Position numbers and translations under genes: made by a program. Source: Modestobacter sp. Leaf380 (lineage in GTDB: Bacteria > Actinomycetota > Actinomycetes > Mycobacteriales > Geodermatophilaceae). From it: DNA of 64,000 bases. Position 1 is the stretch's first letter; each line of letters starts with the position of its first letter. The notes below the pieces were generated by a model. The model was not told where the DNA came from. It searched no databases and saw only the letters and a program-made list of their open reading frames with translations. Positions 16,316 through 29,362 of this stretch are shown piece after piece. Where the stretch lies: positions 1 through 64,000 of the forward strand of contig NZ_LMQC01000020.1 in NCBI RefSeq assembly GCF_001424485.1. The letters are read 5' to 3'.

Positions 16316-17293
16316 CTAGTCGCGCGGGTCCTGCGGGCGGCCGGCGGTGACGGAGTCCTCGCGCGACAGCTCGGCGACCAGGGCGTCGCGGCGCTCCTGC
16401 TCCAGGCGGGCGGCGGCCTCGACCGACTCGGCCTCGGTGTCGGCCCGGTAGACCCGCCACGAGTGGACGACGGCGGCGACCCAGCCGAGCACGATGACCG
16501 CGTAGACCGGCCAGCGGACGGCGTCGGCGACCTCGAAGGCGTTGAACAGCGACCGGGTGTTGGTGAACACGATGATCCCGCCGACCGCGGAGCCCAGCAG
16601 GCGAGGCGGCACGTGCCGGACCAGCCAGGCGGCGATCGGGGCGGCGATGACGCCACCGATGAGCAGACCGGCGACCCAGGTGGCGTCGATGCCCTGGGAG
16701 CCCAGGGAGAGCAGGAAGCCCAGCGAGGCGGCGAGCGCGACGATGAACTCCGAGGTGTCGATGGAGCCGATCACCTTGCGGGGCTCCATCCGGCCGCTGG
16801 CCAGGATGGCGGGGGTGCCGACCGGGCCCCAGCCGCCGCCGCCGGTGGCGTCGACGAAGCCGGCGACCAGGCCCAGCGGGCCCAGGAAGCGCTTGCGCAT
16901 GGGCTTGCCGAGGTTCTGCTTGTTCAGCCCGCGGAAGGTGAAGCGGATCAGCACGTAGAGGCCCAGGACCAGCAGGATCGCGCTCATCAGCGGGGCGGCG
17001 ACCGAGGTGTCCAGCGAGGCCAGGAAGGTCGCGCCGGCGAAGGCGCCGATGCCACCGGGGATGCCGATCTTGGCGACGACCTTCCAGTCGACGTTGCCGA
17101 AGCGCCAGTGCGAGGCGCCCGACACCAGCGTGGTGCCGATCTCGGCGAGGTGGACGGTGGCCGACGCCGCGGCCGGGCTGGCGCCGACGGCCAGCAGCAG
17201 CGTCGTGGAGGTGACGCCGTAGGCCATGCCCAGGCTGCCGTCGACGAGCTGGGCGCCGAGGCCCACGAGGGCGAAGAGGATCAGGGTGCGCAC
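16316..17293 (-). CDS. TSUP (TauE/SafE) family permease, probable sulfur-compound transporter
   Basis: A 325-residue membrane protein from GTG 17293 (VRTLILFALVGLGAQLVDG), with about eight hydrophobic helices. The two TauE-fold repeats carry GLGAQLVDGSLGMAYGVTST in the first half and VDATGGGGWGPVGTPAILAS in the second. The cytoplasmic C-terminus is charged (EAAARLEQERRDALVAELSR). TSUP members move sulfite, sulfoacetate, taurine or other sulfur organics. The upstream leader contains a short Cys-containing peptide of a type found before actinobacterial sulfur genes (17393-17452), which supports a sulfur substrate and control by cysteine or charged tRNA-Cys supply. Confidence 0.9.
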   Translation of the reverse strand: MRTLILFALVGLGAQLVDGSLGMAYGVTSTTLLLAVGASPAAASATVHLAEIGTTLVSGASHWRFGNVDWKVVAKIGIPGGIGAFAGATFLASLDTSVAAPLMSAILLVLGLYVLIRFTFRGLNKQNLGKPMRKRFLGPLGLVAGFVDATGGGGWGPVGTPAILASGRMEPRKVIGSIDTSEFIVALAASLGFLLSLGSQGIDATWVAGLLIGGVIAAPIAAWLVRHVPPRLLGSAVGGIIVFTNTRSLFNAFEVADAVRWPVYAVIVLGWVAAVVHSWRVYRADTEAESVEAAARLEQERRDALVAELSREDSVTAGRPQDPRD

Positions 17294-17330
17294 AGGGGTG
17301 CTCCAGGAAGAGGGTCTGGCTGGGGGAGGG

Positions 17331-17379
17331 GCCCGACCGCGCACCCGCGTCGGGCAGGGCGTCTCAGCAGAGGGAGACG
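17331..17379 (-). promoter_or_regulatory. Two hairpins between leader peptide and TSUP gene (possible attenuator)
   Basis: On the transcript, CGTCTC/GAGACG (17379-17360 region, loop of 8) is followed by GCCCGAC/GTCGGGC (17355-17331, loop of 11). Both lie between the leader-peptide stop and the permease start. They could be alternative structures governed by ribosome position on the leader; no competing pairing was computed. Confidence 0.35.
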
Positions 17380-17392
17380 GCCCCGGGGGAGT

Positions 17393-17452
17393 TCAGCGAG
17401 CCAGACAGGCTGCGGTGGTGACGCGCACCAGGTCGACGTGGATGCGGGTCAC
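17393..17452 (-). CDS. Leader peptide upstream of TSUP permease (H-V-D-L ... C type)
   Basis: A 19-codon ORF from GTG 17452 to TGA 17393 reads VTRIHVDLVRVTTAACLAR. An AGGTGA ribosome site ends 7 bases before the GTG. A -10-like TAGACA lies at 17501-17496, giving a short 5' leader. The HVDL-x-R-V ... A-x-C core matches the very short proteins annotated in actinobacteria as putative leader peptides, typically ahead of sulfur assimilation and transport genes. The Cys near the end is the presumed sensor codon. This gene is too short for normal gene finders, and its role in attenuation is inferred. Confidence 0.6.
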   Translation of the reverse strand: MTRIHVDLVRVTTAACLAR

Positions 17453-17518
17453 CAGGAGGTCACCTGGGAGCACACCGGTCGCCGACACGGGGCAATGTCT
17501 ACCAGTCCGATGCAGAAG

Positions 17519-17531
17519 GGGGGAAACCCCC
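17519..17531 (-). terminator. Small hairpin after the MFS gene
   Basis: GGGGG and CCCCC separated by three bases lie just past the MFS stop codon at 17538 and before the TSUP leader promoter. A weak terminator candidate. Confidence 0.3.
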
Positions 17532-17537
17532 GTCCCG

Positions 17538-18983
17538 TCAGGTGGGATCGGGTTCCAGGACGTCGGCCCGGATGGTCACCAGGGCCACCAGACCGCCCAG
17601 CGCGACGAGGCCGGCGCACAGCCGCATCGCCAGCGCGTAGCCGTCGGTGAAGGCGTCGGCGTCGGCGTAGTCGTCGCCGGACAACCCCACCAGCAGCGGC
17701 AGCGCGGCCACCGAGAGCAGCTGGGCGGCGCGGGCGACGGCGTTGTTCACCCCGCTGGCCACCCCGGCCAGGTGGTCGGGTGCGGCACCGAGCACGGTGG
17801 CGGTCAGCGGCGCGACGGTGAGCGCCATCCCCAGCCCGAACAGCAGCGAGCCCGGCAGCACCCCGGTGGGCCACGACGTCCCGGCACCGACGAAGGACAG
17901 CCAGAGGACCCCGGACGCGGCGACCAGCGGGCCCACGGTCATCGGCAGCCGGGGCCCGAACCGGGTGGCCAGCGCGCCGGCCCGGGAGGACAGCAGCGAG
18001 ATCACCAGGATCGAGGGCACCATCGCCGCCCCGGACTCCAGTGCGTCGTAGCCCAGCACGGTCTGCAGCTGCAGCACCAGGAAGAAGGAGAACCCGCCCA
18101 GGGCGCCGTACACGGCCAGCGTCGTGAGGTTGGCGCCGGTGAACTGGCGGTCGGCGAAGACCCCCAGCGGCAGCATCGGGTCCGCCGTCCGCCGCTCCTG
18201 GACGACGAACCCGACGCCGGCGGCCAGGCCCACGGCCAGTGCGACCCAGGTGCCCGGCCCCGAGCCGGCGTCGATGAGGGCGTAGGTGACCCCGCCCAGC
18301 GCCAGCGCGGTCAGCACCGCCCCGGGGACGTCGAAGCGGCCGTGGTGGGCGGGGTCCCGGCTCTCGGGCACGTGCCGGACCGACACCACGACGACGGCGA
18401 TCGCCAGCGGCACGTTGACCAGGAAGACCCACCGCCAGCTGACGGCGTCCACCAGGAACCCGCCCAGGAACGGGCCCCCCAGCCCGGCGATGCCGCCGAG
18501 CCCGGACCACAGCCCGATCGCCCGGGCCCGGTCGGCGTGCCGGAAGGAGGACTGGATCAGCGACAGCGAGCCCGGCGTCAGCAGGGCGCCGCCGACGCCC
18601 TGCAGCACCCGGGCGGCGACCAGCAGCTCGGTGGAGGGGGCCAGCCCGCACAGCAGCGAGGTGGTGGCGAACCAGACGACGCCGACCAGGAAGACCTTCC
18701 GCCGGCCGTACCGGTCCCCGAGCGCGCCGCCGAGCAGGATCAGCGAGGCCAGCGCCAGGGTGTAGCCGGTGACGGTCCACTGCAGCCCCGACAGCGAGGA
18801 GCCCAGCTCGGCCCCGATGCTGGGCAGGGCGACGTTGACCGCGGTGGAGTCCAGGAACGCCATCGCCGAGGCGAGCACGGTGGCCAGCAGCACCCAGCGG
18901 GCCGGCGGCGTGCCCAGGGCGAGGGGGGTCGGCGGGGGAGCGGGCGGGGCGTCGTCCCTGGCCACCGGGCCCCCGTTCCTCAT
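17538..18983 (-). CDS. MFS transporter, DHA2 (14-TM) drug:proton antiporter type
   Basis: A 481-residue major-facilitator pump. Motif A appears as GGALGDRYGRRKVFL between helices 2 and 3. The DHA motif C-like region is GLWSGLGGIAGLGGPFLGGF in helix 5. The early D1-type motif is LASAMAFLDSTAVNVALPSI. About fourteen hydrophobic segments and the length fit EmrB/QacA-type efflux. The ATG at 18983 overlaps the Pit transporter stop (ATGA), so translation is probably coupled to the phosphate genes. A downstream GTG giving VARDDAPPAP is an alternative start. The substrate is unknown. Confidence 0.9.
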   Translation of the reverse strand: MRNGGPVARDDAPPAPPPTPLALGTPPARWVLLATVLASAMAFLDSTAVNVALPSIGAELGSSLSGLQWTVTGYTLALASLILLGGALGDRYGRRKVFLVGVVWFATTSLLCGLAPSTELLVAARVLQGVGGALLTPGSLSLIQSSFRHADRARAIGLWSGLGGIAGLGGPFLGGFLVDAVSWRWVFLVNVPLAIAVVVVSVRHVPESRDPAHHGRFDVPGAVLTALALGGVTYALIDAGSGPGTWVALAVGLAAGVGFVVQERRTADPMLPLGVFADRQFTGANLTTLAVYGALGGFSFFLVLQLQTVLGYDALESGAAMVPSILVISLLSSRAGALATRFGPRLPMTVGPLVAASGVLWLSFVGAGTSWPTGVLPGSLLFGLGMALTVAPLTATVLGAAPDHLAGVASGVNNAVARAAQLLSVAALPLLVGLSGDDYADADAFTDGYALAMRLCAGLVALGGLVALVTIRADVLEPDPT

Positions 18984-19981
18984 CCGACGATCGCGTGCGT
19001 GAGCCAGTAGACCCCGGCGGCGACGGCGCCCGCTGCCGGCAGCGTCAACACCCAGGCCACGACGATGTTCCCGGCCACGCCCCAGCGCACCGCCGACAGC
19101 CGCCGGGTGGAGCCCACGCCCATGATCGAGGTGGTGGTGATGTGCGTGGTGGACACCGGCACCGCGAACACGGTGGCCGTGGTGATCATGACGCCCGACG
19201 CCACCGTCTGGGCGGAGAAGCCGCCGGCCGGGGTGAGCTGGATGATCCGCCGCCCCAGCGTGCGCATGATCCGGAAGCCGCCGGCGTAGGTGCCCGCGCT
19301 GATCGCCAGGGCGGCCGCGATCACCACCCAGAGCGGGACCTCGAAGGTGTCGATCTGGCCGGAGGTGACCAGCGCGAGGGTGATGATGCCCATCGTCTTC
19401 TGGGCGTCCTGCAGGCCGTGGCCCAGCGCCATGGTCGCGGAGCTGACGATCTGGGCGTACCGGAAGCCACGGTTGGCCCGGGTGACGTTGGCGCCGCGGA
19501 AGGACCACAGCACCGCGAGCATCACCAGGTAGCCCAGGCCGAAGCCGACCAGCGGCGAGAGCACCATCGGGATGACGACCTTCTCCACGATGCCCAGCCA
19601 CTGCACCGAGTGGACGGCGGCCAGCGCGGCGCCGACCAGTCCGCCGATGAGGGCGTGCGAGGAGGAGCTGGGCAGCCCGAAGTACCAGGTGATCAGGTTC
19701 CAGGTGATCGCGCCGACGAGGGCGGCGAAGACGATCTGCAGGCCACCGGCGCCCGAGGGGGTGTCGATGATGCCGGCACCCACGGTCTGCGCGACCTCGG
19801 TGGAGATCAGCGCCCCGACCAGGTTCATCACCGCGGCGAGGGCCAGCGCGACCTTGGGGGTGAGCGCCTTGGTGGAGACGGCGACGGCGATGGAGTTGGC
19901 CGCGTCGTGGAAGCCGTTGGTGTAGTCGAAGGCCAGGGCGACGACGACGATGACGACGAGGGCGAGGAACAACCCGTCCAC
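18980..19981 (-). CDS. pit: Inorganic phosphate transporter, PiT family
   Basis: A 333-residue low-affinity phosphate:cation symporter. The two inverted PiT signature repeats are FDYTNGFHDAANSIAVAVST near residue 20 and HGLQDAQKTMGIITLALVTS around residue 190. GLPSSSSHALIGGLVGAALA is also typical. About ten membrane helices. The DUF47 partner gene ends 7 bases upstream (19989) and the MFS gene overlaps downstream, giving a three-gene unit on the minus strand. A PHO-box-like repeat stands before the first gene. Confidence 0.95.
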   Translation of the reverse strand: MDGLFLALVVIVVVALAFDYTNGFHDAANSIAVAVSTKALTPKVALALAAVMNLVGALISTEVAQTVGAGIIDTPSGAGGLQIVFAALVGAITWNLITWYFGLPSSSSHALIGGLVGAALAAVHSVQWLGIVEKVVIPMVLSPLVGFGLGYLVMLAVLWSFRGANVTRANRGFRYAQIVSSATMALGHGLQDAQKTMGIITLALVTSGQIDTFEVPLWVVIAAALAISAGTYAGGFRIMRTLGRRIIQLTPAGGFSAQTVASGVMITTATVFAVPVSTTHITTTSIMGVGSTRRLSAVRWGVAGNIVVAWVLTLPAAGAVAAGVYWLTHAIVG

Positions 19982-19988
19982 GGCGGGC

Positions 19989-20606
19989 TCAGGACTCCTT
20001 GACGGCGATGGTCTCGACCACGTTCGCCACGTGCTCGAAGGCGTCGGCGGCCTCCTCGAGCTGGTCGGCGACCTCCTTGAGCTTGAGGATCTCCAGGGCG
20101 TCGAACTCCCCGGAGTACAGCCGGGACAGCAGCCGGCGGTACAGCTTGTCCGCCTCGTTCTCCAGGCTGTTGACCTCGATCCAGTAGTCGGAGAGGTCCT
20201 TCATCGAGCGCAGCCGGGGCATCGCGTCGGCGGTGACCTGTGCGCAGCGCTGCAGCAGCGCGACCTGCTGGCCCATCTCGGCGGGCAGCGTGCCCAGCCC
20301 GGTGAGGACGACGAGGTCGGCGGCGGCCTCGATGGCGTCCATGACGTCGTCCAGGTCGCTGGCCAGGTTGTAGATGTCCTCGCGGTCGAACGGGGTCACG
20401 AAGCTGGAGTTCAGCTGCCGGAAGACCGCGTGCGTGGCGTTGTCACCGGCGTGCTCCAGGTCGCGCAGGACGCGGCCGAGCTCCTCGCGGCGGGTGATGT
20501 CGTGCACGAAGTCGCCCAGTACGGCGGTGGCCTCGACGAGGTTCGTCGCCGAGGCGGTGAACATGTCGTAGAAGCGCGAGTCCTTGGGCTTGAGGCTGAA
20601 GGCCAC
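19989..20606 (-). CDS. DUF47 family (PhoU-like) protein, Pit accessory
   Basis: A 205-residue all-alpha protein of the DUF47/PhoU-like family (YkaA type). It begins MAFSLKPKDSRFYDMFTASA and contains LEHAGDNATHAVFRQLNSSF, LASDLDDVMDAIEAAADLVV, and the conserved ending DAFEHVANVVETIAVKES. The E/D-rich motifs bind metal clusters in PhoU relatives. Members are typically encoded next to pit and modulate Pit transport. The gene is first in the operon, 70-90 bases downstream of a PHO-box-like element and a TAGGCT -10 candidate (20660-20655). Confidence 0.93.
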   Translation of the reverse strand: MAFSLKPKDSRFYDMFTASATNLVEATAVLGDFVHDITRREELGRVLRDLEHAGDNATHAVFRQLNSSFVTPFDREDIYNLASDLDDVMDAIEAAADLVVLTGLGTLPAEMGQQVALLQRCAQVTADAMPRLRSMKDLSDYWIEVNSLENEADKLYRRLLSRLYSGEFDALEILKLKEVADQLEEAADAFEHVANVVETIAVKES

Positions 20607-20671
20607 GGGAGACGACTCCGGGGGAGGTGGGGTGTCGGTCGGACGACCGCGGAGAGCCTACGACCCCTTGC

Positions 20672-20700
20672 GTCCACCAACCGTTCACCTCTGCGTCACC
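20672..20700 (-). promoter_or_regulatory. PHO-box-like triple direct repeat before DUF47-pit
   Basis: Three 7-base units at exact 11-base intervals, GTCCACC (20672), GTTCACC (20683) and CGTCACC (20694), resemble the actinobacterial PhoP/RegX3 box (GTTCACC direct repeats). The block covers the -35 region of the DUF47-pit operon, with TAGGCT as -10. Its far end overlaps the stop of the ECF sigma gene. The units are reversed relative to the operon. Confidence 0.5.
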
Positions 20701-21274
20701 TGACGCCGGCGTCGCCCTGCCCGTCGTGGCGGTCGTCCCGCTGCTCGTCGGCCACGGCCTGCACCAGGTCGCCCCGCGCCCGGGCGACCCGCGACCGGAT
20801 GGTGCCCACCGGCACGCCCGCGACCTCGGCGGCCTCGGCGTAGGGCAGGCCCATCAGCTGGGTGAGCACGAAGGCCTCGCGCCGGTCGGGGTGCAACCGG
20901 GCCAGCAGGTCCTCCACGACCGCGCCCTCCCCGACCCGGTCGGTGGTGCCGTCGGCGCGGTCGAGCAGCTCGTCGTCCCCGACCAGGGTGAGCCGTCGCC
21001 GCTTCCGGCTGCGGATGGCGTCGGCGCAGACCCGCCGGGCGATCGACAGCAGCCAGGTGCGCACGGTGGAGCGGCCGGCGAAGCGGTGCAGCGAGCCGAA
21101 CGCCCGCAGGTAGGTCTCCTGGGTCAGGTCGTCGGCGGACTGCCGGTCCCCGAGGTGAGCGCACAGCCGCCAGACGTCGGTCTGGGTCTCCCGGACCAGC
21201 GTCGCCGCGGCCACCGGGTCCCCTGCGACGGCGGCCGCGGCGACCCGCGCCAGCTCGTCGTAGGGGGTGTCCAC
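20696..21274 (-). CDS. ECF RNA polymerase sigma factor (SigC-like)
   Basis: A 192-residue sigma-70 family protein with only regions 2 and 4. Region 2 reads LGDRQSADDLTQETYLRAFG with RTWLLSIARRVCADAIRSRK. Region 4 reads LTQLMGLPYAEAAEVAGVPV and GTIRSRVARARGDLVQAV. GTG 21274 is taken as start (VDTPYDELARVAAAAVAGD); an ATG at 21304 is also in frame. It is divergent from a zinc-finger membrane protein and copper-type genes. Resemblance to mycobacterial SigC, which has been linked to copper acquisition, is recalled rather than computed. Confidence 0.9.
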   Translation of the reverse strand: MDTPYDELARVAAAAVAGDPVAAATLVRETQTDVWRLCAHLGDRQSADDLTQETYLRAFGSLHRFAGRSTVRTWLLSIARRVCADAIRSRKRRRLTLVGDDELLDRADGTTDRVGEGAVVEDLLARLHPDRREAFVLTQLMGLPYAEAAEVAGVPVGTIRSRVARARGDLVQAVADEQRDDRHDGQGDAGVR

Positions 21275-21351
21275 ACACCCAGTCTGACCTGTGACCCAGC
21301 CCATGTGGTCGCTGCGGGAACCCGGGACGCCCCGGCGGCGACTAGGAGGAC

Positions 21352-21990
21352 GTGCACTGCGACGTCTACCGCGAGGCCGCCTCCGCCCGGATGGACGGGG
21401 AGGGCTCACCCGTCCCCGCGTCCGCCCTGGACGCCCACCTCGCCGGCTGCCCGGCCTGCACCGGGTGGCTGGCCGCCGCCGGACTGGTGACCCGCCGCGC
21501 CCGGCTGGCCCCGGCCCCCGCCGTCCCGGACCTGACCGCGGCCGTCCTCGGCGCCCTGCCGGCCCGGCTGCCGGGTGCCGCCGCCGCAGCCCGCTCCCGG
21601 CTGGTGACGACGGCGCTGCGGCTGCTGCTGCTGGCCGTCGGCGTCGCCCAGGTGGGGCTGGCCACGCCGTCGCTGGTGTTCGGCGAGGGTGCGATGAGCG
21701 CCCCGGTGCACATGGCGCACGAGACCGGCGCCTGGAACCTGGGTCTGGCCGTGGCCTTCCTGGCCTGTGCCGCCGCGCCGCGGCTGGCCGCCGGTGCACT
21801 GCCCTTCCTGGCCACCTTCACCGGCGTGCTCACCGTCATGACCGTCACCGACCTGGGTGCCGGCCACGTCACCGCCGACCGGGCCACCGGGCACCTGCTG
21901 CTGCTGGCCGGGCTCGTCGTCACCGCCGTGCTGGCCTGGCGCGGGCGGCGGCGCCGCGCGGTCGGTGCCGGGTTCCGGGTGCTCGCGTGA
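21352..21990 (+). CDS. Zinc-finger (zf-HC2-like) multi-pass membrane protein, possible anti-sigma factor
   Basis: A 212-residue protein from GTG 21352 with a strong AGGAGGA just upstream. The N-terminal 40 residues carry a ZAS-like motif: HCDVYREAASARMDGE and then DAHLAGCPACTGW (H-x3-C-x2-C). After that come about five hydrophobic helices, for example LRLLLLAVGVAQVGLATPS and HLLLLAGLVVTAVLAW. Single-pass anti-sigma factors are the norm, so the polytopic C-terminus is a variant, perhaps sensing membrane events. It is divergent from the ECF sigma gene and the stop overlaps the CopC-CopD start, tying the sigma pair to the copper operon. Confidence 0.82.
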   Translation: MHCDVYREAASARMDGEGSPVPASALDAHLAGCPACTGWLAAAGLVTRRARLAPAPAVPDLTAAVLGALPARLPGAAAAARSRLVTTALRLLLLAVGVAQVGLATPSLVFGEGAMSAPVHMAHETGAWNLGLAVAFLACAAAPRLAAGALPFLATFTGVLTVMTVTDLGAGHVTADRATGHLLLLAGLVVTAVLAWRGRRRRAVGAGFRVLA

Positions 21991-23720
21991 GGCGGGTCGC
22001 CCTCCTGCTGCTCGGCCTGGTCGCGTGCGGGCTGCTCGTCGACGTCGGCACCGCCCGTCCGGCCAGCGCGCACGCCACCGTCGTCACCACCTCGCCCGGT
22101 GAGGGGGCCCGGCTGGAGGCCGCCCCCGACGAGGTGACCCTGACCTTCGACGAGGGCATCTCGCTCGGTGCCGGCTACGCCCGGGTGCTGGGCGCCGGCG
22201 GCGACCGGGTCGACACCGGCGCGGCCACGGTCTCCGACACCACGATCACCGTGCCGCTGCGCGCCGACCTCCCCGACGCCAGCTACGTCGTCACCTACCG
22301 GGTCGTGTCGGCGGACTCGCACCCCGTCTCCGGTGCCTACGCCTTCGTCGTCGGGGACGGCGAACTGGTCGCGGCCACCGACGTCGACGCCGGCAGCGAC
22401 GTCGACCCGGTGGTCGGTGCACTGCTGCCGGTCGCCCGCTGGGTCGGATTCGCCGGGCTCGCGCTGGGCGTGGGTGTCCCGGTGTTCCTGGTCGCCTGCT
22501 GGCCGGCCGGGTGGGCCGCGCCCCGGGCCCGGAGGATGACGCTGGCCGGGCTGGCCGCCGTCGGCGTCGGCGGGCTGCTGTCCTTCCTGCTGCAGGGCCC
22601 GTACGCGGCCGCCGTCGGGCTCACCGGGGTGGTCGACCCGCAGCTGTTGTCGACCACCGCCGGGTCGGCGTACGGCGCGACCCTGCTGGTCCGGGTCGTG
22701 CTCGCCGCCGGTCTGGCCGCGGTGGCCGTGCTGGCGTTCCGTGGCCGCCCCACCGTCCCGCTGCTGGCCGGGGGCGGGGTGCTGGGGTCCGGGCTCGTGC
22801 TGAGCACCGCGGCCGTCGGGCACCCGGTCGCCGGGGCGCTGCCCGGGCTGGCCGTCGTCGTCACCACCGTGCACGTGGCCGCGATGACCGCCTGGCTGGG
22901 CGGCCTGGCGGTGTTGCTGGCGGTGGTGCTGCGGCCCGGCGTGGCCGCCGGGGGGCTGGCGACCGCGCTGCCCCGGTACAGCCGGCTGGCCGCCGGGTCG
23001 GTGGCCGCGCTGGTGGTGACCGGGGTCGTGCAGTCCGTCCGCGAGGTCGGCACCCTCGGCGCCCTGCTCTCGACCACCTACGGCTGGGTGCTGGTCGCCA
23101 AGCTGGTGCTCGTCCTGGGCCTGCTCGCCGTCGCCGGGGTCAGCCGGGTGTGGGTGCAGCAGCGCCTGGGCGCCCCGCGCACCAGCTCGCGCCGGGTGGT
23201 TGCGCACGCCTACAGCGAGGACGCCGACGACGAGGACCCCGCCGCCCGCGGTCGCGCCGAGGCCGCCGTCGCCGAGGTCGGTCCGTTCCGCCGGTCGGTG
23301 CTGATCGAGCTCGCCGTCGCCGCCGTCGTGCTGGCGCTGTCGGCGGTGCTCGTGGGCACCCCGCCGGCCAAGGCCGCCGTCGCCGACCCGGTCGACGTCA
23401 CCCTGCCGCTGGAGAGCGCCACCGGGACCGACGGCAGCGTGCAGCTGTCGCTGGACCCGGCCTCGCCGGGCCCGAACACGCTGCACGTCTACCTCTTCGA
23501 CGACACCGGCCAGCTGACCCAGCCGCAGGCGCTGCGGGTCACGCTGACGGAGGCCCAGCAGCAGATCGGCCCGCTCGACGTCGACCTCGAGCCGGCCGGG
23601 CCCGGCCACACCATCGGCGACGCGCAGGTGCCCACCGCCGGCACCTGGACGCTCACCGTCACCGTGCGGCTCGACGAGTTCACCGCCCTCACGGCGGCCA
23701 CCACCTTCCCCGTGCGCTGA
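21987..23720 (+). CDS. CopC-CopD fusion, copper resistance/uptake protein
   Basis: A 577-residue fusion starting at GTG 21987. After a signal peptide ending SAHAT, the mature protein would begin at His, the first ligand of the CopC Cu(II) site. The CopC domain (about residues 30-125) also shows DEVTLTFDEGISLGAGYARV and VSADSHPVSGAYAFVVGDG, with a second His. The CopD part (about 145-430) has eight or so helices, including VVTTVHVAAMTAWLGGLAVL with conserved His and Trp. The final 110 residues form an extra exported beta-rich domain. CopCD takes copper into or across the membrane, probably for cuproenzymes. Confidence 0.93.
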   Translation: MRRVALLLLGLVACGLLVDVGTARPASAHATVVTTSPGEGARLEAAPDEVTLTFDEGISLGAGYARVLGAGGDRVDTGAATVSDTTITVPLRADLPDASYVVTYRVVSADSHPVSGAYAFVVGDGELVAATDVDAGSDVDPVVGALLPVARWVGFAGLALGVGVPVFLVACWPAGWAAPRARRMTLAGLAAVGVGGLLSFLLQGPYAAAVGLTGVVDPQLLSTTAGSAYGATLLVRVVLAAGLAAVAVLAFRGRPTVPLLAGGGVLGSGLVLSTAAVGHPVAGALPGLAVVVTTVHVAAMTAWLGGLAVLLAVVLRPGVAAGGLATALPRYSRLAAGSVAALVVTGVVQSVREVGTLGALLSTTYGWVLVAKLVLVLGLLAVAGVSRVWVQQRLGAPRTSSRRVVAHAYSEDADDEDPAARGRAEAAVAEVGPFRRSVLIELAVAAVVLALSAVLVGTPPAKAAVADPVDVTLPLESATGTDGSVQLSLDPASPGPNTLHVYLFDDTGQLTQPQALRVTLTEAQQQIGPLDVDLEPAGPGHTIGDAQVPTAGTWTLTVTVRLDEFTALTAATTFPVR

Positions 23721-23749
23721 CCGGCGCACACCCGATCGACAGGAGAACC

Positions 23750-24484
23750 ATGTCCACCGCACCCCGCCGTCTCGCCGTCCTGACCCTGGCCACCGGCATC
23801 GCCGTGGTCGCCGGGAGCGGCGTCGCCTCCGCCCACGTCCGGGTGTCCTCCTCGGACGCCACCCCCGGCGGTTACGGCGTCTTCACCTTCCGGGTGCCCA
23901 ACGAGAGCGACACGGCCAGCACCACCTCGCTGCGCATCCAGCTGCCCACCGACACCCCGCTGACCTTCGTGCAGGCCGAGCCGGTCGCCGGCTGGACCAT
24001 CACCCCCACCACCACCCAGCTGGACCCGCCGGTGGAGTCCGACGGCGAGGAGATCACCCAGGCCGTCACCGTCGTGCAGTTCACCGCCGAGACCGGCGGG
24101 GGGATCGCCCCCGGCCAGTTCCAGGAGTTCTCGCTGCTGGGCGGCCCCTTCCCGGACGCCGACAGCGTCTCCTTCGCCGCGGTGCAGACCTACAGCGACG
24201 GCAGCGAGGCGGCCTGGATCGAGCCGACCGTGGAGGGCCAGGACGAGCCGCAGTACCCCGCGCCGGTGCTGGAGCTCGCCGCCGGGACCGAGGCGGCCGG
24301 GGACGCGCACGGCTCGGGGTCCGCGGACGCCGACGCCGGCACCACCACCGAGGCGGCGTCGGGCGACGAGGACGGCAACGGCCTAGCGGTCACCGCGCTG
24401 GTGCTCGGTGGGCTCGGCCTGGTCGCCGGCCTGGCCGGACTCGCCCTGGGGCTCACCGCGCGCCGTCGTACCGTGGGGTCGTGA
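23750..24484 (+). CDS. YcnI family (DUF1775) exported copper-binding protein
   Basis: A 244-residue membrane-anchored protein. A signal peptide ends GVASAHVRVSS, so the mature N-terminus is His, as in B. subtilis YcnI, where His1 helps bind Cu(II). The DUF1775 body shows ATPGGYGVFTFRVPNES and later IAPGQFQEFSLLGG. An acidic Gly/Ser/Thr linker and a C-terminal helix (LVLGGLGLVAGLAGLALGLT) anchor it outside the cell. The stop overlaps the next gene (SCO1-like) by 4 bases. In the CopCD-YcnI-SCO1 order it likely passes copper between partners. Confidence 0.93.
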   Translation: MSTAPRRLAVLTLATGIAVVAGSGVASAHVRVSSSDATPGGYGVFTFRVPNESDTASTTSLRIQLPTDTPLTFVQAEPVAGWTITPTTTQLDPPVESDGEEITQAVTVVQFTAETGGGIAPGQFQEFSLLGGPFPDADSVSFAAVQTYSDGSEAAWIEPTVEGQDEPQYPAPVLELAAGTEAAGDAHGSGSADADAGTTTEAASGDEDGNGLAVTALVLGGLGLVAGLAGLALGLTARRRTVGS

Positions 24485-25158
24485 GGGCACCAGTGCACGG
24501 ACACCGGACCGGACTGGCCGCGACGGCGGTGGGGGCACTGCTCCTGCTGACCGGCTGCAGCGGCGGTGACGGCGGCAGTGGTGCCGCGGGCTCCGGGCAC
24601 GACCACGCCGCGGGCGAGGCCCCGGCGACCGTGTCCGGGCCGTCGAACCCCTACGACGGCCTGTTCCTGCGCGACGCCTACCAGAAGCCGGACTTCACGC
24701 TCACCGACCAGACGGGTGCGCCCTACGACTTCGCCGCCCAGACGGCGGACGGGCCGACGCTGCTCTTCTTCGGCTACACCAACTGCCCCGACATCTGCCC
24801 CACGACGATGGCCGACGTCGCCATCGCGCTGCAGAGCGTCGACCCGGCGGTGGCCGAGGCGACCCGCGTGGTGTTCGTGACCACCGACCCGACGCGGGAC
24901 AGCCCCGAGGTGCTGGGGGAGTACCTGGGCCGGTTCTCCACCGGGATCGCCCCGGAGATCGTCGGGCTGACCGGTGACCAGTCGCAGGTCGACGCGGCCC
25001 AGCTGTCCGCGGGCGTGCCGCTGGCCGAGGAGATGGGCCAGCAGCACAGCTCGCTGCTGCTGCTGTACGGCACGGACGGCGAGGCCGACGTCGCCTTCGA
25101 CGCCGGCAACACCTCCCGGGACATCGCGCACGACCTGTCCCTCGTGGCCGCCGAGTGA
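24481..25158 (+). CDS. SCO1/SenC family lipoprotein
   Basis: A 225-residue thioredoxin-fold copper chaperone from GTG 24481. The lipobox is LLLTGC near residue 25, so the protein is a lipoprotein. The SCO core shows the metal and redox motif GYTNCPDICPTTMADVAI (CxxxC), then VFVTTDPTRDSPEVLGEYL. The distal His expected around residue 190 is supplied by the QQHSSLLLLYGTDG region. SCO proteins deliver copper to the CuA site of cytochrome c oxidase. Translational coupling to YcnI suggests direct cooperation. Confidence 0.93.
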   Translation: MRAPVHGHRTGLAATAVGALLLLTGCSGGDGGSGAAGSGHDHAAGEAPATVSGPSNPYDGLFLRDAYQKPDFTLTDQTGAPYDFAAQTADGPTLLFFGYTNCPDICPTTMADVAIALQSVDPAVAEATRVVFVTTDPTRDSPEVLGEYLGRFSTGIAPEIVGLTGDQSQVDAAQLSAGVPLAEEMGQQHSSLLLLYGTDGEADVAFDAGNTSRDIAHDLSLVAAE

Positions 25159-25174
25159 CGGCAGACTGAGCGCC

Positions 25175-26227
25175 GTGGGCGACGGGGCGGTGCGGCGGGC
25201 CGGTGCGCGGGCACTGACCGTGCTGCTCGGCCTCGTCGCCGTGCTCGCGCTGGCCGGTCCGGCGGTCGCGCACGTGGGCAGCGGCGCTGCGGGCAGCGAC
25301 TTCGACGGCCGGGTCACCTCGGTGTCTCCCGCGGTGCCGGGGCTCACCGTGCGGGTGCTCCAGTTCGGCGACGAGATCGAGGTGGTCAACACCACCGACA
25401 CCGAGCTCTCCGTGCCGGGCTACTCCGGTGAGCCCTACCTGCGGATCGGCCCGGACGGCGTCTGGCGCAACAGCCGCAGCCCGGCCACCACGATCAACCT
25501 GGACCGCTTCGCCCGCACCGAGCTGCCCGAGGACGCCGACGCGCAGGCGACCCCGGTCTGGGAGCAGGTCTCCACCCAGCCGCAGTACGTGTGGCACGAC
25601 CACCGCACGCACTGGATGAGCGAGGGCCTGCTGCCCCCGGAGGTGGCCGCGGACCCGACCAGCGAGCACACCGTCTTCGCCTGGACCGTGCCGATGTCCC
25701 TCGGCGGCGCCCCGGTCGACGTCGAGGGGGTGCTCACCTGGTCCCCGCCGCCACCGGCCTGGCTGGTGTGGCCGGTGTACCTGCTGCTCCTCGGGCTGGT
25801 GGTGGCCGCCGGCCTGCGCGCACCCCGCGCCCTCGCCGCCGCCCTGGCCGTCGGCGCCGCCGCCTCGCTGTGGCACGCGCTCAGCACGCCGGCCCCGGCG
25901 GTGAGCGTGAGCTCGCACCTGGGAGCCGTGGCCTCCGCCCTGCTGCCTGCGCTGCTGGTCGGGGCCGTGGCGCTGCTGGGTGTCCGGGCCGCGTCGCGCG
26001 GGCGCGGCTCGCTGACCGGGGTGCTCGCCGTCGTCGCCGGGTGGCTGCTGCTGGTTCAGGGACTGCCCGACGTCGACGTGCTCTGGACGGCGAACGTGCT
26101 GGGCACCGGGCCCGCGCTGCTGGCCCGGGCCGCGGTGGCGGTGCTGCTGGCCGGTGGACTCGGCCTGGTCGTCGGCGGTGCGCTGGCGGCCCGCCGGTGG
26201 CGGGCGGTCGAGACCGTCCCGGCCTGA
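25175..26227 (+). CDS. Exported membrane protein of unknown family in the copper operon; mature N-terminus likely His
   Basis: About 350 residues from GTG 25175. The signal peptide ends LAGPAVAHVGSGAAG; cleavage after AVA would expose His1, as in CopC and YcnI two and three genes upstream. An exported beta-rich domain of roughly 190 residues follows, with QPQYVWHDHRTHWMSEGLLP rich in His and Met. After it come five to six membrane helices (WLVWPVYLLLLGLVVAAGL and others). No named domain is recognised. Operon position plus His1 and HDHRTHWM suggest an undescribed copper-binding or copper-transfer protein; this is inference. Confidence 0.8.
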   Translation: MGDGAVRRAGARALTVLLGLVAVLALAGPAVAHVGSGAAGSDFDGRVTSVSPAVPGLTVRVLQFGDEIEVVNTTDTELSVPGYSGEPYLRIGPDGVWRNSRSPATTINLDRFARTELPEDADAQATPVWEQVSTQPQYVWHDHRTHWMSEGLLPPEVAADPTSEHTVFAWTVPMSLGGAPVDVEGVLTWSPPPPAWLVWPVYLLLLGLVVAAGLRAPRALAAALAVGAAASLWHALSTPAPAVSVSSHLGAVASALLPALLVGAVALLGVRAASRGRGSLTGVLAVVAGWLLLVQGLPDVDVLWTANVLGTGPALLARAAVAVLLAGGLGLVVGGALAARRWRAVETVPA

Positions 26228-26285: not shown

Positions 26286-26753
26286 GTGACACCTCTCCGC
26301 GTGCTGTCCGCCGTCCTCGCGTCGACGGCCCTGCTCGGTGGCTGCGCTGCGGAGAACGACCTGGGGCAGACCGCCGCCCAGGAGCGGCCCGGGCACGAGT
26401 CTGCGGCCCAGGTCGAGGTGAGCAAGGACGTCACGGTCACCGCCGCGCGACTGCAGCGCCCGGCCGACGGCGACCTGGCCGCCGGTGACGACGTCGTCCT
26501 CGGGCTGACGGTGAGCAACACCGGCGGGTCCGACGACGAGCTGGTGTCGGTCACGGGGACCGGCTTCGGCGCGGTCCTGGGTGGCCCGTGGACGGTGCCG
26601 GCCGGGGGCGAGCTGACCGCCGGTGGTGCGGGGTCGGACACGCTCACCCTCCCCGGGCTCCTCGCGGGTCTGCCGGTCGGGGACGCCCTGCAGGTCACGT
26701 TCGTCTTCGAGCGTTCCGGCGACGTGACGCTGACCGTGCCCTACGAGGGCTGA
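26286..26753 (+). CDS. Lipoprotein, LpqE/PCuAC-like fold, unknown function
   Basis: A 155-residue lipoprotein from GTG 26286 with lipobox ALLGGC. The mature domain starts EVSKDVTVTAARLQRPADGD and contains GLTVSNTGGSDDELVSVTG, resembling actinobacterial lipoproteins of the LpqE/PCu(A)C-like group. The Met and His ligands (H-x-M) of true PCuAC copper chaperones are not visible here. It follows the copper operon 58 bases after the preceding stop and may belong to it. An association with cytochrome oxidase assembly is possible but unproven. Confidence 0.75.
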   Translation: MTPLRVLSAVLASTALLGGCAAENDLGQTAAQERPGHESAAQVEVSKDVTVTAARLQRPADGDLAAGDDVVLGLTVSNTGGSDDELVSVTGTGFGAVLGGPWTVPAGGELTAGGAGSDTLTLPGLLAGLPVGDALQVTFVFERSGDVTLTVPYEG

Positions 26754-26807
26754 CCCGCCGGGGGTCCCGCCCCGCGGATCAGCGCCGGTCGTGGCAGGCT
26801 CGGGGAC

Positions 26808-27800
26808 GTGGGCGGGGTCGCGCAGGTGCAGCTGCTGGCAGCCCAGGGTCCCCCGCCGGGCGCCGCGCCCAACCTGGGCCTGGCCGTCCTGCTGGCGCTG
26901 CTGTCGGCGTGCGCCTTCGCCGTCTCCACCGTCGTCCAGCACCGGGCCGCCACCGCGGCCGGTGAGGACCTGCCGCAGGGCGCGGTCCTCCGGCTGGTCG
27001 GCAAGCTGGTCCGCAACCGGGCCTGGATCGCCGGGCAGGGCGCCGCGCTGGCGGGGTTCCTGCTGCACGCCGCGGCGCTGAAGTTCGGGCCGGTCGTCGT
27101 CGTGCAGCCGCTGCTCAGCGGTGGGCTGGTCATCTCCCTGGCCCTGGGTGCAGTGGTGGACCGCCGGCACGCCGACCGGGTGCTGCCCGAGCGGGGTCAG
27201 TGGATCGCCGCCGGCGTGGTCGCGGTGACCCTCGGTCTCTTCGTCGTCTCCGCCATGCCGCGGCACGGCTCGTCCTACGCCGACCCGACCGCGTTGCTGG
27301 CGTGCGCCGGGGGAGCGGCCCTGTTGATGGTGGGCGCGGCCCTGTGGGCGCTGCGTCCGGACGCCCCGCACAAGGCGCTGGCCCTGGGGGTGGCGGCCGG
27401 TGGCGGTTTCGGCATCACCGGACTGGTGCTCAAGGACGTCGTCGCGCACCCGCCGGCCGAGCTGCTCACCAGCTGGACCACCTACCTGCTGCTGGTCTCC
27501 GGTGCGGCCTCCATCGTCTTCGCCCAGTGGGCCTACCAGTCCGGGGCGCTCATCGAGTGCCTGCCGGTGATGGCCGTGCTGGAGCCGCTGGTCGCGGTCG
27601 GGCTGGCGGCGCCGGTGTACGGCGAGCAGCTCGCACCCGGGTTCCTGGCGACCACCGGGCAGGTCGTCGGGGTGGTCGGGCTGGTGGTCGGGGTGGCGGT
27701 GCTGGCCCGGCGGACCGCGGCCCGGGAGACCACGGGCGTGCCGCTGGCCGTCCCGGCACCGGCACCGGCCCCGCACCCGCACCCCCGCCGGCGGGGCTGA
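26808..27800 (+). CDS. DMT (EamA-like) superfamily transporter
   Basis: A 330-residue membrane protein from GTG 26808 with about ten hydrophobic helices. The first, LGLAVLLALLSACAFAVSTV, is followed by the conserved VVQHRAAT. The repeat halves contain LHAAALKFGPVVVVQPLLSG and FAQWAYQSGALIECLPVMAV, which is characteristic of the actinobacterial DMT branch often annotated only as DMT family transporter. The C-terminus is Pro/His-rich (APAPHPHPRRRG). Substrate unknown. Two hairpins follow the stop. Confidence 0.88.
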   Translation: MGGVAQVQLLAAQGPPPGAAPNLGLAVLLALLSACAFAVSTVVQHRAATAAGEDLPQGAVLRLVGKLVRNRAWIAGQGAALAGFLLHAAALKFGPVVVVQPLLSGGLVISLALGAVVDRRHADRVLPERGQWIAAGVVAVTLGLFVVSAMPRHGSSYADPTALLACAGGAALLMVGAALWALRPDAPHKALALGVAAGGGFGITGLVLKDVVAHPPAELLTSWTTYLLLVSGAASIVFAQWAYQSGALIECLPVMAVLEPLVAVGLAAPVYGEQLAPGFLATTGQVVGVVGLVVGVAVLARRTAARETTGVPLAVPAPAPAPHPHPRRRG

Positions 27801-27819
27801 CCCTCCCGACCGGATCGGC

Positions 27820-27872
27820 CCGAATGACAGCGATGTCATTCGGCACACGGCGTGTCTCGGGAGACGCGCCGT
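27820..27872. promoter_or_regulatory. Two adjacent strong hairpins between DMT and M23 genes
   Basis: The first is CCGAATGACA (27820-27829) with TGTCATTCGG (27834-27843) around a GCGA tetraloop. The second is ACGGCGTGTCT with AGACGCGCCGT (27847-27872), one G-T wobble and a minimal loop. They may terminate the DMT gene. The AT-richer first palindrome also looks like an operator. A -10-like TTACGT lies at 27901-27906, ahead of the peptidase. Confidence 0.4.
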
Positions 27873-27963
27873 CCAGGGGGTCACAGGCAGGTCACGGCTC
27901 GTTACGTTGTGCGGCATCGGTCGCGGTGCGCGGTCGGGGGACGCACACACCGGGGGACGCAGC

Positions 27964-28674
27964 ATGGCGGCAGGTCGCAGCGCGGGACGGGCCACCACCG
28001 GCGCACGCGCGCTCCGCCGCCGACCGGCCGCCCTGCTCGTCGCACTCGCCCTGGGCGGTGTCCTCGCCGGGGTCGTCGGACTGCCCGCCGTCCCCGCCGC
28101 GACCGCCGACAGCAGCGTCGCCGAGGTCCTGCTGGCCTCGGAGGACGCGGCGTTCGCCGACGAGGTCATGCCGCAGATGGCGATCACCGAGGCCGAGGCG
28201 CAGGAGCGGCTGGTCGAGGTCGCGGCGTCCCGGGCGCAGCGCGAGGCCGACGCGGTCGCTGCCGCCGAGGCCGCCCGGCCCGACGCGGTGGCGCCCGTCG
28301 ACGGCGCCCGGATGACGACCTGCTTCTGTCAGCGCTGGGGCACCATGCACTGGGGCATCGACCTCGCCGCCCCGATGCTCACCCCCGAGTACGCGGCGGA
28401 GGACGGCGTCGTCGTCCGGGCCGGTGCGGCCAGCGGCTACGGCCAGGCCGTCTACGTCCTGGGCGTCAGCGGCGACGTGACCGTCTACGGCCACATGGAG
28501 GAGATCGAGGTCTCCGCCGGCGACACGGTGCAGGCCGGCGACACGATCGCGCTGCTGGGCAGCCGCGGGCAGTCCACCGGGCCGCACCTGCACTTCGAGG
28601 TGCACGTGGGCGGCATGAACGGCCCGCCCACCGACCCGGTCGAGTGGCTCCGCGAGCGCGGCGTCGAGCTCTGA
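27964..28674 (+). CDS. M23 family metallopeptidase (secreted)
   Basis: A 236-residue secreted endopeptidase. An Arg-rich n-region and hydrophobic core (LLVALALGGVLAGVVGLPAV) form the signal peptide. A helical, Glu/Ala-rich segment (ITEAEAQERLVEVAASRAQR) follows. The LytM domain has MHWGIDLAAPML (first His and Asp ligands), VYGHMEE, and GPHLHFEVHVGG (catalytic and ligand His), so the active site is complete. It should cut peptidoglycan cross-bridges outside the cell during growth or separation. Monocistronic and convergent with kdpE. Confidence 0.93.
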   Translation: MAAGRSAGRATTGARALRRRPAALLVALALGGVLAGVVGLPAVPAATADSSVAEVLLASEDAAFADEVMPQMAITEAEAQERLVEVAASRAQREADAVAAAEAARPDAVAPVDGARMTTCFCQRWGTMHWGIDLAAPMLTPEYAAEDGVVVRAGAASGYGQAVYVLGVSGDVTVYGHMEEIEVSAGDTVQAGDTIALLGSRGQSTGPHLHFEVHVGGMNGPPTDPVEWLRERGVEL

Positions 28675-28687
28675 CCGACGCCCCCGC

Positions 28688-29362
28688 CTAGGGGCGGAAG
28701 CGGTAGCCCATCCCGGGTTCGGTGTGCAGGTACCGCGGGTGGGCGGGGTCGGGTTCCAGCTTGCGGCGCAGCTGGGCCAGGTAGACCCGCAGGTAGTTGG
28801 TCTCGGTCTCGTACGCCGGGCCCCACACCGACTGCAGCAGCTGCCGCTGGCCGACCAGCCGGCCCGGCGCGCGCACAAGCTCCGACAGCAGCGCCCACTC
28901 GGTCGGGGTCAGCCGCACCGGGACGCCGTCGACGGTGACCTGCCGGGCGGCCAGGTCCACGGTGAAGTGGTCGGTGACGACGACGGGGGCGGTGGTCTCG
29001 GTGGACCGCCGGCGCAGCACCGCGCGCAGCCGGGCCAGCAGCTCGTCCATGTCGAAGGGCTTGGTCACGTAGTCGTCGGCACCGGCGTCCAGCGCGGCGA
29101 CGGCGTCCGCGCTGGCGGTGCGGGCGGTGAGCACCAGCACGGGGCCGGTGAACCAGGGCCGGAGCCCGGCGAGCACCTCCGTGCCGTCCAGGTCGGGCAG
29201 GCCCAGGTCCAGGACGACGACGTCGGGGTGCGACGCGGCGGCCTCGCGGAGCGCGGTGGCGCCGTCGGGGGCCACGACGACCTCGTGCCCGGCGGCGCGC
29301 AGGGTGATCCGCAGGGCGCGCAGCAGCTGGGGGTCGTCGTCGACGACCAGCACCCGGCTCAT
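28688..29362 (-). CDS. kdpE: KdpE, OmpR-family response regulator of potassium uptake
   Basis: A 224-residue regulator. The receiver domain has the phospho-acceptor Asp in VVVLDLGLPDLDGTEVL (about residue 52), acidic pair VDDD near the N-terminus, and the switch Lys in DDYVTKPFDMDELLARL. The C-terminal winged helix is the OmpR/PhoB type, LTPTEWALLSELVRAPGRLV and ETNYLRVYLAQLRRKLEPDP. It overlaps kdpD by 4 bases and lies downstream of it on the minus strand. Its targets are probably the 11-base direct repeats before kdpD and before kdpF. Confidence 0.96.
   Translation of the reverse strand: MSRVLVVDDDPQLLRALRITLRAAGHEVVVAPDGATALREAAASHPDVVVLDLGLPDLDGTEVLAGLRPWFTGPVLVLTARTASADAVAALDAGADDYVTKPFDMDELLARLRAVLRRRSTETTAPVVVTDHFTVDLAARQVTVDGVPVRLTPTEWALLSELVRAPGRLVGQRQLLQSVWGPAYETETNYLRVYLAQLRRKLEPDPAHPRYLHTEPGMGYRFRP

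Follow-up and report, generated by a model that had tools for sequence, protein, structure and literature searches.

A gene at positions 25175-26227 of the forward strand of the window, the 64,000-nucleotide stretch of Modestobacter sp. Leaf380 DNA that was analysed, codes for a bacterial membrane protein of a hitherto undescribed family, whose genes adjoin copper-handling and respiratory-oxidase genes in many actinobacteria. The evidence that this family is associated with copper delivery and with cytochrome oxidase is good. We consider it probable that the target protein belongs to a new family of extracytoplasmic copper-handling proteins, with a predicted capacity to bind metal, that would link CopCD and YcnI to Sco, PCuAC and cytochrome oxidase. 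In a 2022 review, the proteins that insert the metal centres of oxidase subunit I are described as poorly understood (PMC9145763). A concrete candidate is offered by a broadly distributed, unnamed family whose genes lie beside those for CopCD/YcnI, Sco, PCuAC and the oxidase.

The target gene and its operon

The first gene of the operon (21352-21990, forward strand) encodes a zf-HC2 anti-sigma-like protein (Pfam zf-HC2, 35 bits) and lies divergent from a called gene for an ECF sigma factor on the reverse strand (20696-21274; Pfam Sigma70_r2 and r4_2). There follow, all on the forward strand, a YcnJ-like CopC-CopD fusion (21987-23720; Pfam CopC 81 bits, CopD 67 bits), YcnI, a DUF1775 protein (23750-24484; 152 bits), a SCO1/SenC lipoprotein (24493-25158, with a possible alternative start at 24481; 95 bits), the target, and a PCuAC-like lipoprotein (26301-26753). 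CopC/CopD, YcnI and SCO1, which a preliminary description of this DNA had named as the neighbours of the target, each score above the Pfam cut-off. The C-terminus of the CopC-CopD fusion carries a weak FixH/YtkA-like region (FixH 20.6 bits, YtkA 13 bits, both below cut-off). The PCuAC-like product is a weak match (Pfam PCuAC 23.4 bits vs a cut-off of 29.4), and it has one His and no Met after the lipobox, so that the usual copper motif has seemingly been lost.

The GTG start of the target lies 17 nt beyond the last base of the SCO1 stop, and its 350-residue product is predicted to be exported and membrane-anchored, in agreement with the preliminary description, which had placed an exported reading frame directly after SCO1. 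The same description had assigned the product to no known family, and this holds: no family in Pfam, NCBIfam or PHROGs scored above cut-off, and the sequence had no match in the PDB. Membership matches to Pfam CopC, DUF1775, PCuAC and SCO1 were each absent, and the protein contains no Cys at any position and hence no CXXXC motif. DUF3093 (E value 0.33) and MXAN_0125 were considered as identities and rejected, as both matches fell below cut-off. Among the open-licence PMC papers listed in literature searches, no title or opening of an abstract describes the family.

Association with copper and oxidase genes

The locus set consisted of 80 regions around matches to the target, a selection from all matches, together with the window and with the remnant at L063 excluded; the resulting sample held 80 target loci from 71 genomes and 24 taxonomic families. 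The window supplied the seeds for marker profiles of CopC, CopD, YcnI, SCO1 and PCuAC, which were fixed before the loci were inspected. Once the neighbours had been examined, the set was extended by profiles for PCuAC2, COX1, CtaB, cupredoxin and multicopper oxidase, whose representatives were checked against Pfam; the cupredoxin check was marginal (21.6 vs 21.2 bits), and the CtaB assignment is based on a UbiA match and the place of the gene after COX1. Control regions were drawn from 20 genomes, at approximately preset relative positions along the contigs, and 38 of 40 were used, L258 and L261 having been dropped as short and lying beside target loci.

With profiles that had all been iterated on the target loci, and are to that extent biased in their favour, a marker of any kind had its midpoint within 5.5 kb at 61 of the 80 target loci (19 of the 24 families) and at none of the 38 controls (Fisher p 5e-17, for loci that are non-independent and uncorrected for relatedness). 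The five window-seeded profiles alone gave 52/80 loci (18 families) vs 0/38 controls within the same distance. When up to 9.1 kb on each side was considered, where the stretch reached that far, a marker was found at 63/80 loci vs 2/38 controls, one of the two positive controls containing CopC/CopD and the other the end of a CopD gene. The co-occurrence with copper genes that the preliminary description had suggested surveying is borne out by the 5.5-kb comparison, in which 19 of the 80 loci have no marker gene.

By marker, and within 5.5 kb of the 80 targets, the counts were 39 for CopC, 40 for CopD, 30 for YcnI, 22 for SCO1, 11 for PCuAC, 7 for COX1, 5 for CtaB, 8 for cupredoxin and 2 for multicopper oxidase. 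Given the frequencies of CopC and CopD, CopC is usually present alongside the target.

The exported domain and its candidate copper ligands

The A-x-A rule assigns residues 1-32 (25175-25270) to the signal peptide, which ends in PAVA; in the alignment of 80 homologs A30 is kept in 70 and A32 in 75. AlphaFold and conservation together delimit an exported beta-sandwich domain of about 160 residues (33-193; 25271-25753), which is followed by a poorly conserved anchor of five transmembrane helices (25757-26212, AlphaFold). The model of the mature protein, built from 74 aligned sequences, has a mean pLDDT of 89.3 and a pTM of 0.82, and consists of ten strands and then five long helices at mature positions 163-183, 185-205, 216-242, 246-271 and 282-314; of the five or six C-terminal helices counted in the preliminary description, five are thus predicted and a sixth is not. 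The exported domain modelled alone gave a pLDDT of 88.4 and a pTM of 0.81, and Foldseek searches of the PDB with both models returned no match at E <= 1e-3. Hydropathy indicates only one helix in 11 of the 80 members, and the best-kept helix residues are R318 (63/68) and P239 (58/68). Because the helices vary across members, the exported domain is taken to be the conserved unit of the family. A copper channel formed by conserved polar helix residues was considered and is disfavoured by the same variation and by the single-helix members.

The candidate copper ligands of the domain are H141, H143 and H146, which lie in the sequence W-H-D-H-R-T-H-W-M (residues 140-148; 25592-25618), with HDHRTHWM itself at residues 141-148 (25595-25618). 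Of the 80 homologs, 73 have H141, 75 D142, 73 H143, 80 R144 and 74 H146, and the whole [WFY]HDHRxH motif is retained in 71. A pattern scan of GTDB contigs gave 219 relatives among 240 hits, of which the best 80 were kept; in all 80 of these H141, D142, H143, R144 and H146 are present, a count that is partly selected since DHRTHWM was among the three search patterns. The simplest reading of these sequences is that the HDHRxH cluster would bind copper.

Residue 33 (25271-25273), the predicted mature N-terminus, is His in the target; some members of the family have Asp instead. Cleavage according to the A-x-A rule (marked by a slash) would expose His in the target (PAVA/HVGS), in CopCD (PASA/HATV) and in YcnI (VASA/HVRV), and the SCO1 protein of the operon carries the lipobox LTGC and is a lipoprotein; the observation that three of four consecutive exported products begin with His is accordingly upheld by that rule. 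A rough signal-peptide script put His at +1 in both the target and YcnI and made no call for CopCD; of 52 further neighbourhood proteins predicted to be exported, it put His at +1 in none. In the 80 target loci residue 33 is His in 56, Asp in 22, Gly in 1 and Gln in 1. It is His in 78 of the best 80 of the 219 contig-scan loci, the other two being unreadable, and in 18 of 19 further loci of the distant family f57, with a gap in one (L231). None of these three counts involved pre-selection for His or Asp. In the structure alignment, which included 73 of the 80 contig-scan loci, the rows were picked by a pattern demanding His or Asp after A-x-A; the invariance of the first His in those rows was partly selected for and has been set aside as evidence.

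All 22 members with Asp33 retain HDHRxH and 20 have copper or oxidase neighbours; the corresponding numbers for the His33 members are 48/56 and 41/56. When the 80 domains are arranged in a tree, the two labels cluster strongly (3 label changes vs 19.4 in shuffles), and the switch between the Asp and His forms may have had a single origin. The preliminary description had asked whether the N-terminal His and HDHRTHWM are both invariant. The motif, as [WFY]HDHRxH, came close to this (71/80), whereas the His did not, being replaced by Asp in 22/80. Of the preliminary proposal of an undescribed copper protein working with CopCD, YcnI and SCO1, the novelty, the co-occurrence and the motif have therefore stood, but not a family-wide N-terminal His.

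These data bear on a further reading, namely that the target is a histidine-brace protein in which the amine and side chain of the first His, with one of H141, H143 and H146, hold Cu(II). The preponderance of His at residue 33 in all three sets of loci speaks for it, as does the precedent of B. subtilis YcnI, CopC and other proteins, in which the N-terminal His is described as a copper ligand (PMC8424229). The Asp33 members, however, resemble the His33 members in motif and neighbourhood, and the existence of Asp clades weakens the case for an obligatory brace ligand. In both AlphaFold models the N-terminus is disordered (pLDDT below 50 for residues 1-4 of the mature model and 1-8 of the domain model), and a brace is not seen because these residues lack placement. 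On balance we regard a histidine brace as rather unlikely, and favour a copper-handling domain in which the free mature N-terminus is a possible supplementary ligand. The natural exchange of His for Asp at this position offers a probe of what an N-terminal ligand contributes.

Gene arrangements

At five loci of family f31 (L100, L101, L107, L136 and L138) the target directly follows, on the same strand, COX1 and a CtaB-like gene, both of which were Pfam-checked in one locus; a second target copy is present in four of these five genomes. Such loci, where no CopC, CopD, YcnI, SCO1 or PCuAC was detected by the profiles within 5.5 kb, could indicate that the target is an assembly scaffold of cytochrome c oxidase, or a haem-related helper, which does not bind copper and uses its His cluster structurally. 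The invariance of R144 and N99 (80/80 each), together with the conservation of E86 (79/80) and D142, would likewise suit a structural core. CopC genes, on the other hand, lie near 39 of the 80 loci, and the nine members that lack [WFY]HDHRxH all retain R144, with copper or oxidase neighbours in 3/9 vs 58/71 for the motif-bearing members (p 0.005), which fits a functional role of the His residues. A copper-free assembly factor is thus judged improbable, and copper handling by the exported domain remains the preferred explanation.

At L116 (8792-10843) a single open reading frame of 684 amino acids encodes the target domain followed by CopD (Pfam 57 bits), with no CopC match. In family f57, to which L116 belongs, CopC adjoins a free-standing target at 18 of the best 20 loci; of the other two, one is the fusion locus and one shows neither arrangement. 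Given this predominance of an adjacent CopC, the fusion is likely to have arisen by deletion. In this single case the target domain appears to stand in the usual place of CopC.

SCO1 and a cupredoxin-like lipoprotein occur together near the target at eight loci from five families, and the order SCO1, cupredoxin, target is found in L108, L109 and L113. The small cupredoxin-like lipoprotein (3414-3782 in L109, and likewise in L108, L113 and L106) has the target on one side and SCO1 or CopC on the other; the one tested gave a marginal plastocyanin-type match.

The ECF sigma and zf-HC2 pair of the window (20696-21990) recurs beside CopCD at other target loci, and is possibly a copper-responsive switch. 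That the target is itself a copper sensor which signals to this adjacent pair is very unlikely: the anti-sigma profile was found near 25/80 targets vs 0/38 controls and the sigma profile near 25/80, yet the latter was also found near 7/38 controls, the pair is absent within 5.5 kb at most loci, many of which have the target beside CopCD, SCO1 or COX1, and two f11 loci carry CopCD and the anti-sigma gene on the strand opposite the target.

Comparison with known copper proteins and proposed role

YcnI (DUF1775; PF07987) resembles the target of the window in being exported, in a His predicted to come first after cleavage, in having a membrane anchor and in sharing operons with CopCD. The two show no profile similarity (hhalign 0.3%), and the target has HDHRxH and, in the window, five helices, whereas a single C-terminal helix and a brace with one histidine are described for B. 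subtilis YcnI (PMC8424229). CopC (PF04234) is also exported, with an N-terminal His, and is encoded beside or fused to CopD; it shows no profile similarity to the target (hhalign 0.4%). Sco1/SenC and PCuAC, encoded near the target, probably cooperate with it in supplying cytochrome oxidase with copper; their hhalign probabilities are 0.8% for Sco1 and 0.7% for PCuAC. Sco proteins have a thioredoxin fold with CXXXC, and PCuAC a cupredoxin-like fold with a His/Met motif (PMC9145763); the target is Cys-free. In comparisons with CopC, YcnI, PCuAC, cupredoxin and SCO1 all hhalign probabilities for the target were <=1.5%, in a test of low power that gave only 6.6% for the reference pair CopC and YcnI, and the same low-power test indicated no remote homology to CopD.

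The layout of CopCD in the window resembles that of B. subtilis YcnJ, whose CopC domain is proposed to serve the oxidases by handing Cu(II) to CopD and whose YtkA domain has been connected with the assembly of CuA (PMC13344008). By analogy with YcnJ, the target would act after import by CopCD/YcnI and before delivery by Sco/PCuAC. In the proposed mechanism, cleavage of the signal peptide would leave the beta-sandwich domain on the outer side of the membrane, anchored through five helices in the window and through one in some members. The HDHRxH cluster, helped by the free N-terminus, His here and Asp in other lineages, would then bind copper, probably as Cu(II); either YcnI or the CopC domain of CopCD might donate this copper to the target domain. 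We infer that the copper would be handed on to Sco or PCuAC and thence to cytochrome c oxidase.

The features taken to mark an extracytoplasmic copper chaperone, i.e., predicted export, a membrane tether and linkage to copper genes, are all found in the target. A related arrangement is the sco-ecuc-SLI_4212-dtpA operon of S. lividans, which combines Sco with an extracytoplasmic chaperone for copper and a putative transporter of the metal, and feeds the oxidase and GlxA; it differs in that its fourth gene encodes a DyP peroxidase, and the available text of the source mentions no target homolog (PMC4736821).

A more specific proposal, which we put forward tentatively and with somewhat less than even confidence, is that the family represents a new copper-binding domain of the Actinomycetota, unrelated in sequence to CopC, YcnI, PCuAC and Sco, whose ligands would be HDHRxH and a His or Asp N-terminus (the latter as an Asp variant of a brace), which would hand copper from CopD-type importers to Sco and the oxidase, and which could fully replace CopC.

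Distribution and loss

Homologs were found in 36 of 60 related genomes (a count that takes in the G006 remnant and one short match, in G015), in 61 of 396 genomes sampled across the phylum and in 46 of 121 genomes of family f57. Among the best 80 of the 219 contig-scan relatives, 78 are titled Geodermatophilaceae or its genera, one Frankiales and one Bacillus, the last being unverified. CopC is present in 53/60 relatives vs 36/60 for the target gene, which is therefore regarded as accessory.

In the congener G006 (locus L063) the flanks are colinear with positions 16375-20607 and 26786-29361 of the window, and 21181-26056, i.e., most of the operon, has no counterpart. What is left over consists of sigma-factor pieces and the final 164 nt of the target coding region, and CopC genes are still present elsewhere in the genome. 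The copper operon of G006 thus appears to have been lost as one block.

Three records of the plasmid collection match the target, all from actinomycetes, and two of the three were inspected. The Iamia plasmid encodes an Asp-type member near zf-HC2, cupredoxin, CopD and DUF1775 genes. On the Pseudonocardia plasmid, L292:5899-7011 encodes two tandem degenerate target domains and adjoins a gene annotated as galactose-oxidase-like; maturation of the galactose-oxidase-like GlxA of S. lividans is described as requiring Sco at low copper (PMC4736821). Two target domains per reading frame are likewise found in L129 and L288, and in L129 the His cluster has been lost.
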